Part shown: positions 4,549-9,309 of the stretch, one piece after another
How the letters are laid out: every line of letters begins with the position of its first letter
How positions within the stretch are numbered: the stretch's first letter is position 1
Notes under the pieces: model-generated
What the model was told of the DNA's origin: nothing
Seen by the model: only the letters and a program-made list of their open reading frames with translations
The model's database searches: none
Position numbers and translations under genes: made by a program
Virus record (IMG/VR): IMGVR_UViG_3300030503_000267
Location: 1 to 46,785 of that record
Reading direction: 5' to 3' (one strand)
Source: a virus
Length of the DNA stretch: 46,785 bases

Positions 4549-4639
4549 CTTCAAGGAACGCCGGATATGGATTGAGGCCGTGCAGGCGTTGCGTGCGATG
4601 CCCGGGACTGCTGGGCGGTATCGGGCGTTTGGGTCATGA
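4529..4639 (+). CDS. Possible 36-aa micro-gene
   Basis: The frame starts at ATG 4529 inside the previous gene and ends in an ATGA overlap with the methylase start at 4636. The product starts MTIFTLSFKERRIW and is basic. No function can be proposed; the coupling to the methylase is the main support. Confidence 0.4.
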   Translation: MTIFTLSFKERRIWIEAVQALRAMPGTAGRYRAFGS

Positions 4640-5157
4640 GCGGACATCCCTACAAGTCACGTCCGAATGCGGCGACGCATGTCTGGCTGACGCCGCCGGA
4701 GATTAAAGATCCTCTCGGGCCGTTTGATCTCGACCCGTGCGCTGCGCCAGAGCCGCGTCCGTGGCCGACAGCAAGGTATCACATCACGCTGCCAGACAAC
4801 GGCCTAGATGCAGTCTGGTTTGGGCGTGTGTGGCTGAACCCTCCCTACGGCGCGCATGCGTCAGCTTGGATTGAAAAGCTTGCTGCGCATAACAACGGTA
4901 TCGCGCTTCTTTTCGCGCGTACCGAAACACGCATGTTTCGCGATCACGTCTGGAGCAAAGCTGCCGGCCTGCTGTTCCTTGATGGCCGTCCGCACTTTCA
5001 TCACCCGGATGGCACAAGGGCCAAGGGCAATAGCGGCGGACCTCTTGTGCTGATCGCGTATGGCGCGGCGAATGCCGTTGAACTCAGTTACGTGAGCCGT
5101 AACGGTCTCATCAAAGGGCATTACTTCTGCAACGTGAAATTCGGTGAGGCCGCATGA
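4636..5157 (+). CDS. dam: Phage DNA N-6-adenine methyltransferase (Dam-like)
   Basis: The 173-aa protein matches the phage N6-adenine methyltransferase family (PF05869 type). The N-terminal WLTPPEI is followed by DLDPCA (31-36) and the catalytic NPPY motif (68-71), with the conserved GNSGGPLVLIAYG near the C-terminus. It transfers a methyl group from S-adenosylmethionine to adenine N6 in the phage DNA. Likely uses are protection against host restriction or marking phage DNA. No cognate restriction enzyme is seen nearby. Confidence 0.9.
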   Translation: MSGHPYKSRPNAATHVWLTPPEIKDPLGPFDLDPCAAPEPRPWPTARYHITLPDNGLDAVWFGRVWLNPPYGAHASAWIEKLAAHNNGIALLFARTETRMFRDHVWSKAAGLLFLDGRPHFHHPDGTRAKGNSGGPLVLIAYGAANAVELSYVSRNGLIKGHYFCNVKFGEAA

Positions 5158-5860: not shown

Positions 5861-6565
5861 GTGGCACGCATTCGTTCGATCAAACCAGAGTTTCCTCAGT
5901 CTGAAAGCATGGGCCGCGTGTCTCGAGATGCGCGGCTTTTATTTGTGATGCTTTGGCCCATTTGTGACGACCACGGGAGGACTCGCGCGGCCTCGCGAAT
6001 GCTCGCGAGCCTTCTTTTCCCCTACGATAACGATGCCCCCAAGCTTATAGGAGGATGGCTTGATGAATTGGAGCGGGAAAAGTGCATTAGGCGCTACGAA
6101 TCAGATGGTTCTACTTTCCTAATTGTATGTAACTGGTTGAAACACCAGAAAATTGACAAACCAAGCAAGCCACAGTTCCCCGAGCCTTCGATACCATTCG
6201 AGAGGATTCGCGAGGATTCGTCGGAGGAAGGGAAGGGAGTGGAAGGGATAGGAGAGGATAAAAGCTCTTGCGCTGCGCCTGTTTCACAGTCTCCGGCTGT
6301 TCTGACGATTTTGACGAACACCGGTTTTGATTTCCCCATCACCGAAGATCATGTGGCAGAGTTCAAGGCCAATTATCCCGCTGCGGATGTGATGCAAGAG
6401 CTTCGAGCCATGAGGGCTTGGGCATTTTCAAATTCGAGCAAGCGAAAGACCAAGTCGGGCATGTTGCGTTTCGTCAATGGCTGGCTTTCCAAGGCTCAAA
6501 ACAATCCCAAGTTTCGATCCACAGCGAATGGTGCCATGCCTGAATACATGGTTGGTGCGCTATGA
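5861..6565 (+). CDS. Replication initiation protein (lambda O / DnaT-like replisome organiser)
   Basis: The 234-aa product starts MARIRSIKPEF, the hallmark opening of many phage replisome-organiser proteins, with GTG 5861 and GGAG 8 bases before it. Residues about 15-105 look like a winged-helix origin-binding domain. An acidic, Glu/Gly-rich linker (about 115-135) follows, then a C-terminal helical part with W-x-FxNSSKRKTKSGMLRFVNGWLSKA, the DnaT-like helicase-loading region. It lies directly upstream of, and overlaps (ATGA), the primase-helicase, so it probably binds the origin and recruits that enzyme. The origin may lie inside this gene as in lambda, but no clear iterons are visible. Confidence 0.8.
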   Translation: MARIRSIKPEFPQSESMGRVSRDARLLFVMLWPICDDHGRTRAASRMLASLLFPYDNDAPKLIGGWLDELEREKCIRRYESDGSTFLIVCNWLKHQKIDKPSKPQFPEPSIPFERIREDSSEEGKGVEGIGEDKSSCAAPVSQSPAVLTILTNTGFDFPITEDHVAEFKANYPAADVMQELRAMRAWAFSNSSKRKTKSGMLRFVNGWLSKAQNNPKFRSTANGAMPEYMVGAL

Positions 6566-9309
6566 GGGCTACAGAAATCGCCTCGCATCTCTCGAGCCAA
6601 GTCGAAGCCGTGGTGCGTCACTTGCTCCCTAACGGTCGCCGTCAGGGTCAGGAATGGCGTGTAGGCGGCACGGATGGTGAGGCTGGTAAGTCCATGGGCG
6701 TCCACATGACGGGTGACAAGGCTGGCGTGTGGCTAGACGGCCAGTCGGGCGAGTCGGGCGACCTCATAGGTTTGTGGATGGCTTGCCGACGCGTCGATTT
6801 GCGCACCGCCTGTACGGAGGCAATGGAATTTTGCGGATTGCGTGAAGATCGCCCTCAGCACTCAAGCAAAACATACCGCAAGCCCGACCGTGAAGGCGTA
6901 CATGCGCTAAGCGGTGAACATCTGCAATGGCTGCACAGAATCCGCAATTTGCCTCATGAAAGCATTGTGGCCTACAAACTGGCGAGCCGTGGCAATCGCC
7001 TGATGTTTCCGTACTTGCGCGGGACAGAGTTGGTTTTTGCCAAGTACCGCAAGCTTCCCAAAGATTTCACGGCTGAAGCGGACTGCGAGCCTATTCTCTT
7101 TGGATGGCAGGCCATACCTGGCGATGCTCGAGCTGTGGTTATCTGCGAGGGTGAATGTTTCCCTGGCGACGCGCAGGTATTGACTCGCGAAGGATGGGTT
7201 CGGCTTGCGGATTACCGCAGCGGCGAGGTTGCGCAGTATCGCGAAGGCGCGATTGAATGGGTTCATCCGTTGGCCCGAATCGAAAAGTCATACTCTGGCG
7301 ATCTGCTTCGCTACGAAACGCGCGGGTATGTCTCAGTTACGACTCCCGATCACAACCTTGTTTCGATTGACCACAAGGGCCGCGAATATAAGCACGCGGC
7401 AGTGAATGGGGCGAATAGCGTTGCTGACTTGATACCGCGCGCCGGGTTGCTTGATGGGGCCGGCATCGAACTTTCAGATGCTCAGATTCAGTTTTGCATT
7501 GCAGTGAGCGCGGATGCCGCAATCGACCAAAGAAAGCACGTCGAGCGCGATGGGACCAATGGCGTTGCTGCGCGTGAATGGCACTATGCGCGCTTCGGTT
7601 TCCGAAAACTGCGGAAAATTGAACGCTTGCGCAGCATCATCGCAGCATGCGGGATCGAGGCATCGGACAGCGAAATAGCTGGCGGCTACCGTTCAATGTG
7701 CATGGGTATTCCGGACTGGGTTCCGGGGCGCATGTTGCCGTGGGAGTGGATAGCGGATGCTTCGCTAGAGCAACGGGAAATGATGCTTGCGGAGCTTGTG
7801 CATTGGGACGGCAACAGCGTACCGAATCGGAATCAATCCGAGTACTCCAGCAAGTACCTGCAAAACGCCGAGTGGGTGCAGACGCTTGCGCATTCTACTG
7901 GCCGCGTATCGAGCATCATCCGGCGCCATAACCAGCATGGAGAATGGTTCAAGGTTTCTATTCTGCACAGCAAGAAAACAACGTCGTGGCAGACATTGAA
8001 GGGTAGGGCTGAGCGCATTCCCCACGATGGAAAGGTCTATTGCGTGCAAGTGCCAGCCGGATCGCTGATGGTTCGGCAAGAAGAAAAGATCACGATTAGC
8101 GGTAATTGTGATGCCATTGCATGGCATGCCTACGGTTTCCCTGCTTTGTCGGTTCCGACTGGCGCAGGCTCGAGCAAGTGGATCGAAGGCGAATGGGATG
8201 CGCTTTCGGTATTTGACACGATCTACCTGTCGATGGACATGGACCCATCGGGTCAAAAAGCCATTCCCGAGCTGTGCGAGCGCCTAGGACGTGAGCGCGT
8301 CAAGGTGGTGCAGCTAACCCACAAGGATGCCAATGCGTGCCTTATGGAAGGGGTCAGCGTCGAATCCATGGCGATTGCGCTACGTGACTCGAGAACCCAA
8401 GACCCTACCGAACTGCGCAACGGTGCCGAATACGCCGATGCGTCATGGGCTGAATACTCAAGAATTGATGAAGGCATGCACCTGCCTTGGAAGAAAACCC
8501 ACGAAAGGCTGAAGTTGCGTGCGGGTGAGCTTTCGATATGGGCAGGCGTCAATGGTCATGGAAAGTCCGCTGTCATCGGCAATGTCATCGGGCATCTCGC
8601 GATGGAAGGTTTTCGATGCTGCGTCGCGTCAATGGAATGGCGCATGCCGCTATGGATTGCTCGAGCAGTGCGGCAGATCGCGGGAACGGGTAAGCCTTCT
8701 GAGGCTTTTCACCGGCACATTGTCGGGAAGTTCAAGGAATCCATGTGGGTGTTTGATGTGTCTGGATCCGCCAAGGCCGCGCGAATCCTGGAGGTTTTCG
8801 CTTACGCCCGCCGAAGGTACCAGATTGACTGTTTCGTCATCGACAACCTCACCAAGTGCGGTTTTGCCGATGACGACCACGCGGGGCAAAAGAAGTTTGT
8901 CGAAGCCTTGGCTGACTTTGCTCGAGTCAACGATTGCCATGTAATGCTGGTTGCCCACATGCGAAAGTCCGAATCCGAGGACAAACCGAGCGGAAAAATG
9001 GGCGTCAAGGGATCGGGCGGCATTACAGATATGGCCTCGACCGTCATTGAGGTATGGCGCAATAAGCCTCGAGAGAAAGCGATTCTTAGGTCCGAGCAGC
9101 CAAATGCCGCGCCATTGGATGAGCAGTACAGGCCAGACGGATCGTGCGGCGCGGGGACGATGCTGCTTGTTTTGAAGCAGAACGCCACAGGCGAAGAACC
9201 ATCCGTGCGCCTTTGGTTCGACAAAGACAGCACGCAGTTCCTGGCTGGCCCAGATCACACACCACGCCCTATGGTCGAGTTTTACGCGGTAAACCGGGGA
9301 ATTGCATGA
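6562..9309 (+). CDS. TOPRIM primase-helicase containing an intein
   Basis: The precursor is 915 aa. Removal of the intein (residues 199-515) leaves a 598-aa protein of T7 gp4/Twinkle-like build: a CHC2-like N-terminal region without a clear zinc ribbon, a TOPRIM fold with EGE (196-198) and DMDPSG, and a RecA/DnaB-type helicase. The helicase has Walker A GVNGHGKS (662-669) and Walker B CFVID (757-761). It would unwind DNA at the fork and synthesise primers. The intein separates the catalytic glutamates of TOPRIM from the following C-D-A, so the unspliced protein should be inactive as a primase. ATG 6562 overlaps the upstream stop (ATGA). Confidence 0.9.
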   Translation: MRATEIASHLSSQVEAVVRHLLPNGRRQGQEWRVGGTDGEAGKSMGVHMTGDKAGVWLDGQSGESGDLIGLWMACRRVDLRTACTEAMEFCGLREDRPQHSSKTYRKPDREGVHALSGEHLQWLHRIRNLPHESIVAYKLASRGNRLMFPYLRGTELVFAKYRKLPKDFTAEADCEPILFGWQAIPGDARAVVICEGECFPGDAQVLTREGWVRLADYRSGEVAQYREGAIEWVHPLARIEKSYSGDLLRYETRGYVSVTTPDHNLVSIDHKGREYKHAAVNGANSVADLIPRAGLLDGAGIELSDAQIQFCIAVSADAAIDQRKHVERDGTNGVAAREWHYARFGFRKLRKIERLRSIIAACGIEASDSEIAGGYRSMCMGIPDWVPGRMLPWEWIADASLEQREMMLAELVHWDGNSVPNRNQSEYSSKYLQNAEWVQTLAHSTGRVSSIIRRHNQHGEWFKVSILHSKKTTSWQTLKGRAERIPHDGKVYCVQVPAGSLMVRQEEKITISGNCDAIAWHAYGFPALSVPTGAGSSKWIEGEWDALSVFDTIYLSMDMDPSGQKAIPELCERLGRERVKVVQLTHKDANACLMEGVSVESMAIALRDSRTQDPTELRNGAEYADASWAEYSRIDEGMHLPWKKTHERLKLRAGELSIWAGVNGHGKSAVIGNVIGHLAMEGFRCCVASMEWRMPLWIARAVRQIAGTGKPSEAFHRHIVGKFKESMWVFDVSGSAKAARILEVFAYARRRYQIDCFVIDNLTKCGFADDDHAGQKKFVEALADFARVNDCHVMLVAHMRKSESEDKPSGKMGVKGSGGITDMASTVIEVWRNKPREKAILRSEQPNAAPLDEQYRPDGSCGAGTMLLVLKQNATGEEPSVRLWFDKDSTQFLAGPDHTPRPMVEFYAVNRGIA
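7156..8106 (+). mobile_element. Intein (317 aa) with degenerate LAGLIDADG-type endonuclease
   Basis: The intein starts at Cys199 (CFPGDAQVLT, block A), has block B TTPDH with His264, block F around VYCVQVP (492-498), and ends ISGN (512-515) followed by Cys516 as the +1 nucleophile. The penultimate residue is Gly, not His; Gly-Asn ends occur in other phage inteins. The central part has FCIAVSADA (D318) and MLAELVHWDGNSV (D416), which fit the two DOD endonuclease motifs in weakened form, so homing activity is possible but unsure. The flanks join smoothly as EGE-CDA of TOPRIM, which fixes the borders well. Confidence 0.88.

Follow-up and report, generated by a model that had tools for sequence, protein, structure and literature searches.

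The primase-helicase gene of this phage is interrupted within TOPRIM motif I by 317 in-frame codons. We read these, with a probability of roughly 0.8, as encoding a class 1 intein that is mobile and contains its own LAGLIDADG homing endonuclease; splicing, cleavage, and homing we infer. The window, that is, the whole stretch of DNA analyzed, corresponds to IMG/VR virus record IMGVR_UViG_3300030503_000267 (46,785 bases). To judge from its gene content, the source phage is contractile-tailed, because tail sheath and baseplate genes are found in the record together with those for terminase and portal; the nearest tail sheath proteins belong mostly to phages of Shewanella, Klebsiella, Yersinia, and Pantoea. 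The interrupted gene is directly preceded by that of a replication initiation protein, and its product has the layout of a TOPRIM primase-helicase (T7 gp4-like), with the EGE and DMD motifs, Toprim_2, AAA_25, and a match to phrog_239:

6562..9309, + strand: primase-helicase precursor with intein; open frame of 915 aa plus stop; phrog_239 DNA primase/helicase (E=3.8e-92), Toprim_2 and AAA_25 above the Pfam cut-offs
6562..7155, + strand: N-extein, residues 1-198, up to and including the glutamates (EGE) of TOPRIM motif I, as aligned with intein-free homologues including that of viral contig L146
7147..7155, + strand: EGE (E196-G197-E198), N-terminal half of TOPRIM motif I, seen in the sequence and within an unbroken EGECDA in L146
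7156..8106, + strand: intein, 317 aa, precursor residues 199-515; missing in the L146 primase and further homologues, shares 49% identity with mycobacteriophage primase inteins, supported by AlphaFold2 (pLDDT 94.5) and by Foldseek matches to the TliVMA intein and PI-SceI
8107..9306, + strand: C-extein, residues 516-915, beginning with CDA; 39-40% identity to phage primase-helicases across 95-98% of its length
8236..8244, + strand: TOPRIM D-x-D motif, D559-M560-D561, in YLSMDMDPSG as aligned with intein-free homologues
8515..9240, + strand: helicase/AAA domain (AAA_25 residues 652-804, DnaB_C residues 652-893)

A little upstream of the replication genes, the window also encodes a DNA methyltransferase (phrog_111, 4636-5157).

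The insert divides TOPRIM motif I into EGE and CDA, with the junctions VVICEGE/CFPGDAQVLTREGW...KITISGN/CDAIAWHAYG (slashes mark the points of insertion), and it follows from this anatomy that splicing would restore the motif. Removal of residues 199-515 leaves a product of 598 aa with 36-40% identity to phage primase-helicases, and these intein-free homologues align with exactly the 317-residue segment absent; in those of Pseudomonas and Vibrio phages, which likewise lack the 317 residues, the motif continues as EGE-IDA. A further homologue was found by scanning viral contigs for the pattern ICEGECDA: The primase of L146 is intein-free, shares 74% identity across the whole spliced 598 residues and aligns without a gap through the joined EGECDA, by which comparison it is a natural empty allele of the window primase. 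With regard to co-conversion tracts, the L146 DNA is only 69% identical to the window and shows no sharp step at the insertion site. An assembly artefact is an unlikely source of the insert, because a second IMG/VR metagenome record matches the window over 8516 bp at 100% identity and spans both intein junctions.

The first-pass annotation had placed an intein exactly inside the TOPRIM glutamate motif, with the exteins joining as EGE-CDA, and this placement is borne out by the intein-free homologues, by L146, and by the phylogeny and predicted fold described below. It had also advised a comparison with intein-free homologues, in which both L146 and the more distant proteins proved to lack the insert and nothing else, and it had pointed out that homologues keeping the 317 residues as a conserved part of the primase would overturn its reading. 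Such a conserved, non-spliced domain of the primase family would agree with an insert that is in frame, contains no stop, and recurs at the same position in several primases. It is contradicted by the 74% identical L146 primase and many more distant homologues, all without precisely this segment, and related inteins are found in phosphoesterases, ClpX-like proteins, and helicase proteins, so that we consider it extremely improbable.

Residue conservation within the intein was read from an alignment of 34 relatives, which had been gathered with intein-derived patterns, one of them requiring an endonuclease motif, so that decayed forms are under-sampled and intact ones favored. The elements expected to carry out splicing are the following:

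7156..7194, + strand: block A, from the nucleophile Cys1 to Gly13 (C1 and G13 invariant in the 34 relatives)
7324..7365, + strand: block B, GYVSVTTPDHNLVS, with T63 and H66 (B:10) in TTPDH66 (H66 invariant, T63 in at least 90% of the 34 relatives)
8020..8076, + strand: block F region, VYCVQVPAGSLMVR; F:4 is a Cys (C296 in VYC296VQV, in at least 90% of the 34 relatives)
8083..8109, + strand: block G, KITISGN/C, with the penultimate Gly316, Asn317, and the +1 Cys (N317 invariant, G316 in at least 90%)

All four blocks that had been reported for the insert were thus recovered (C1, TTPDH66, VYC296VQV, and SGN317/C). With C1, T63 and H66 of block B, N317, the +1 Cys, a HINT fold, and an empty homologous gene, the insert has the make-up of a class 1 intein in all but the penultimate position, which holds Gly316. 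A penultimate His is usual in class 1 inteins, not obligatory. Gly in place of His had been pointed out correctly; as a sign of impaired splicing it does not stand, because Gly-Asn forms the terminus of 52 of the 60 sequences in the collected intein set, and because a relative with Gly316 splices completely: According to PMC5050341, splicing of the Bethlehem RDF intein is complete at time zero and its G316H variant is slow, this relative being distant from the window intein (21% identity, via the Turj99 counterpart) and housed in a different extein. The penultimate Gly is accordingly the norm of the family and no indication of a splicing defect.

Assignment to class 3 is contradicted by Cys1, which is present and invariant, and by an incomplete WCT triplet (B:12, F:4, G:5), with C296 at F:4 but Leu68 at B:12 and Ser315 at G:5. 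Nearly the whole intein family combines Cys1 with the block F Cys, usually Ser or Thr at G:5, and a penultimate Gly; the coexistence of the two cysteines offers a natural test case for the origin of class 3 inteins. It is even conceivable that the family links class 1 to class 3 as a living intermediate, with the block F Cys already sharing in acyl transfer, a speculation from residue patterns and from the profile match to a class 3 intein given below that we hold to be rather improbable; structural work has argued that the step linking class 1 to class 3 is unlikely (PMC7664689).

The predicted structure points to the same domain composition. In the AlphaFold2 model of the 317-residue intein (mean pLDDT 94.5), a HINT domain is combined with a two-helix LAGLIDADG endonuclease, and the solved structures ranked highest by Foldseek are the TliVMA intein (E=1.6e-16), PI-SceI, and PI-PfuI, after which I-DmoI matches the endonuclease portion. 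The TliVMA intein and PI-SceI, whose exteins are VMA ATPases, share the HINT plus LAGLIDADG arrangement with the window intein, from which they differ in their longer chains and a sequence identity of 10-13%. The best profile match among solved structures was the N-terminal splicing half of the AceL NrdHF intein (PDB 6zgq, E=8.8e-13), which is described as a split class 3 intein; in contrast to it, the window intein is continuous and has Cys1 as well as an endonuclease. A single-sequence search of solved structures with the window intein returned chance matches only, Pfam gave nothing relevant for the intein alone, and NCBIfam gave only intein_Nterm at E=0.038, which is below the cut-off; the same model is matched at E≤0.1 by 19 of the 34 alignment members. 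For the intein alone, a family-profile search of the kind recommended by the first-pass annotation thus produced just this marginal hit.

For the endonuclease, the following elements were located:

7477..7518, + strand: first LAGLIDADG helix with the catalytic-type Asp D120 (precursor D318); D120 invariant, helix 108-120 in the model
7606..7656, + strand: endonuclease block D with K151, R153, K154, and R157; R153 and K154 invariant, K151 and R157 in at least 90%
7765..7812, + strand: second LAGLIDADG helix, LAELVHWDG, with D218 (precursor D416); E213, W217, and D218 invariant, helix 204-218 in the model

The intein therefore has the two helices of a LAGLIDADG enzyme, each with an acidic residue (D120 and D218), and the statement that D318 and D416 remain was accurate, both being invariant in the 34 relatives. 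The sole visible change in the first motif is the replacement of Gly121, which follows D120, by Ala (ADG to ADA), and the mycobacteriophage copies have the same residue. As synonymous sites were saturated, dN was compared and not dN/dS: Between the window and Petp2012 it amounts to 0.42 for the endonuclease region, and the two splicing regions reach 0.60 and 0.65; the order, with the endonuclease region lowest, is the same between the window and contig L020. Since the Asp and basic residues are kept, ADA is common to the mycobacteriophage copies, and dN is lowest here, the endonuclease is, as far as its sequence can tell, probably functional, and the two DOD endonuclease blocks cannot be called weakened, as they had been. 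The ADA residue alone would suggest a splicing-only remnant, the endonuclease having decayed and the intein now being inherited vertically; retention of every invariant endonuclease residue, the identical ADA in mycobacteriophages, and the lower dN than in the splicing regions make such a remnant unlikely. Two easy misreadings are corrected in this way: Gly in place of the usual His is no sign of decay, and ADA where ADG is expected is no sign that the endonuclease is dead. For the RDF relative, PMC5050341 describes an endonuclease that was toxic until mutated. The R157W endonuclease mutation of the Bethlehem RDF intein could not be transferred to the window intein: The Turj99 counterpart does have Arg at position 157, but this residue and R157 of the window intein do not align.

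Comparison with known inteins identified a lineage that shares the insertion site. Across all 317 of 317 residues, the insert matches mycobacteriophage primase inteins (E=3e-89, 49% identity); this coverage and E-value, the segment-precise absence from homologues, and the gapless L146 alignment show that the observation of an intein is not a product of chance. A search of viral contigs with the single intein protein found nothing beyond an identical record and a single, partial match to a primase; an alignment query on the viral contigs recovered relatives that the single-protein query had missed. In bacterial and archaeal genomes only distant inteins were found, the full-length ones at other sites. 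The nearest inteins in named phages are those of the cluster A1 mycobacteriophage primases Petp2012 gp56 and Turj99 gp53, which are inserted at the identical residue (EGE/C...GN/CD) and resemble the window intein in the penultimate Gly, the Cys at F:4, and ADA in the first LAGLIDADG motif. Their carrier is a short TOPRIM protein, with an extein 30% identical around the site, whereas the window carrier is a full primase-helicase, and their hosts are mycobacteriophages, whereas the window belongs to a contractile-tailed phage with Gammaproteobacteria-infecting relatives. Kelley et al. 2016 (PMC5050341) describe a TOPRIM group of eight inteins in A1 mycobacteriophages; by our reading of annotation and cluster, the Petp2012 and Turj99 inteins belong to it. 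The TOPRIM insertion site is hence already known from A1 mycobacteriophages, and the window intein is a further member of the lineage.

Two more distant comparisons are instructive. The RDF (metallophosphoesterase) intein of Bethlehem gp51, here represented by its Turj99 counterpart, also has 317 aa, Gly316-Asn317, Cys1, and a block F Cys, but is only 21% identical to the window intein (E=4e-7) and lies in a different extein at the site GNHD/S. The primase intein of Stanieria cyanosphaera plasmid pSTA7437.03 is 42% identical over its full length and lies in the same TOPRIM motif and the same clade; its carrier is a D5/DUF5906-type primase, and its junction VEGET/C...CGN/CADAL is displaced from EGE by one further residue. 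Of 55 inteins placed in a tree, which was obtained by a quick search with SH-aLRT support only, the ten inserted at the TOPRIM site are separated from the rest by one branch (SH-aLRT 96); next to them stand phosphoesterase inteins at GDE/CD (91), with one at LDE/CDK in the surrounding group (93). Among the carriers of this clade are DnaG-type, D5/DUF5906-type plasmid, and helicase-fused primases as well as short TOPRIM proteins. One intein lineage thus occupies one catalytic motif in Mycobacterium phages, a contractile-tailed phage whose structural relatives infect Gammaproteobacteria, and a cyanobacterial plasmid. Between the window and the other TOPRIM-site carriers, inteins are 34-51% identical and the flanking 180 extein residues 22-37%; for the close mycobacteriophage-like pair Petp2012 and L018 the values are 71% and 65%. 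Because the inteins are more alike than the flanking exteins, though exteins are normally more constrained, these identities favor horizontal spread of the TOPRIM-site lineage, the alternative being a faster-evolving extein region.

We propose the following course of events. Cys1 would attack the E198-C199 bond, the chain would be transferred to the +1 Cys, and Asn317 would cyclise without the usual penultimate His, so that the 598-residue enzyme would be freed early, with EGECDA intact and no dedicated switch. The free endonuclease would then recognize the TOPRIM-motif DNA of intein-free alleles and cut it, and repair would copy the intein in. In most intein-bearing carriers, the DNA at the site follows GARGGNGAR/TGYGAY; the lineage may have moved between primase architectures because its target DNA encodes nearly invariant TOPRIM residues, which would let one endonuclease lineage enter differently built primases at the same spot. 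With paired intein-plus and intein-free alleles at hand, the homing range is directly testable.

The first-pass annotation had gone further and suggested that conditional splicing could time replication; in such a scheme, a signal such as redox state, metal, or temperature would free a primase held inactive. The division of a catalytic motif, which presumably leaves the unspliced enzyme inactive, would suit such a switch, and PMC6195587 and PMC7360933 document conditional splicing in certain other inteins of replication proteins; homing alone, however, equally predicts insertion into the active site, and the Gly316 relative is, as cited above from PMC5050341, already spliced at time zero. One local feature alone came into question, a Cys at position -4 (ICEGE) that could in principle pair with Cys1 as a redox switch, and it had to be rejected: It is present in the window, L021, and L047, absent in Petp2012, L018, L019, L020, and L023, and found in intein-free L146 as well, which makes it a trait of the extein. 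Timing by conditional splicing is consequently left without support and appears quite improbable. Another reading sees the benefit with the phage, whose endonuclease, in mixed infection, would cut the primase gene of a rival and exclude it. Endonuclease-mediated marker exclusion occurs in other phages and provides a precedent, and a conserved replication gene as target, together with an apparently intact endonuclease, would fit; as simple selfish homing accounts for the same pattern, we think this competition scenario unlikely and retain homing as the explanation.

Several observations were made on the wider family. Near relatives of the TOPRIM inteins lie in unrelated proteins at DE/CD in L024, L008 (RS1pmA), and L113 (Prevotella phage Lak-A1), and the DE/CD insertions (phosphoesterase GDE/CD, ClpX-like LDE/CDK) suggest jumps between non-homologous genes via a shared short target. 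A distant relative in L089 (3001-3903), with a penultimate Arg and outside the TOPRIM-site clade, is inserted a few residues upstream in seemingly the same motif (KVYI/C...CRN/CEGEWD). Besides its TOPRIM-site intein, the primase of L023 (2512-6063) shows a weak LAGLIDADG_3 match (E=0.0012, below the cut-off) at residues 747-825, before the helicase domain, so that the protein may harbor two inteins. In Turj99, distinct inteins of the wider family interrupt two genes that lie close together, those of primase gp53 and phosphoesterase gp50 (L110, 280-1998, - strand); its record names only the gp53 insert as an intein. In PHROGs (phrog_32482) and in one GenBank record (Mycobacterium phage Switzer gp56), intein-bearing primases of this kind are labeled "PhoH-like phosphate starvation-inducible", which is probably a mis-annotation.
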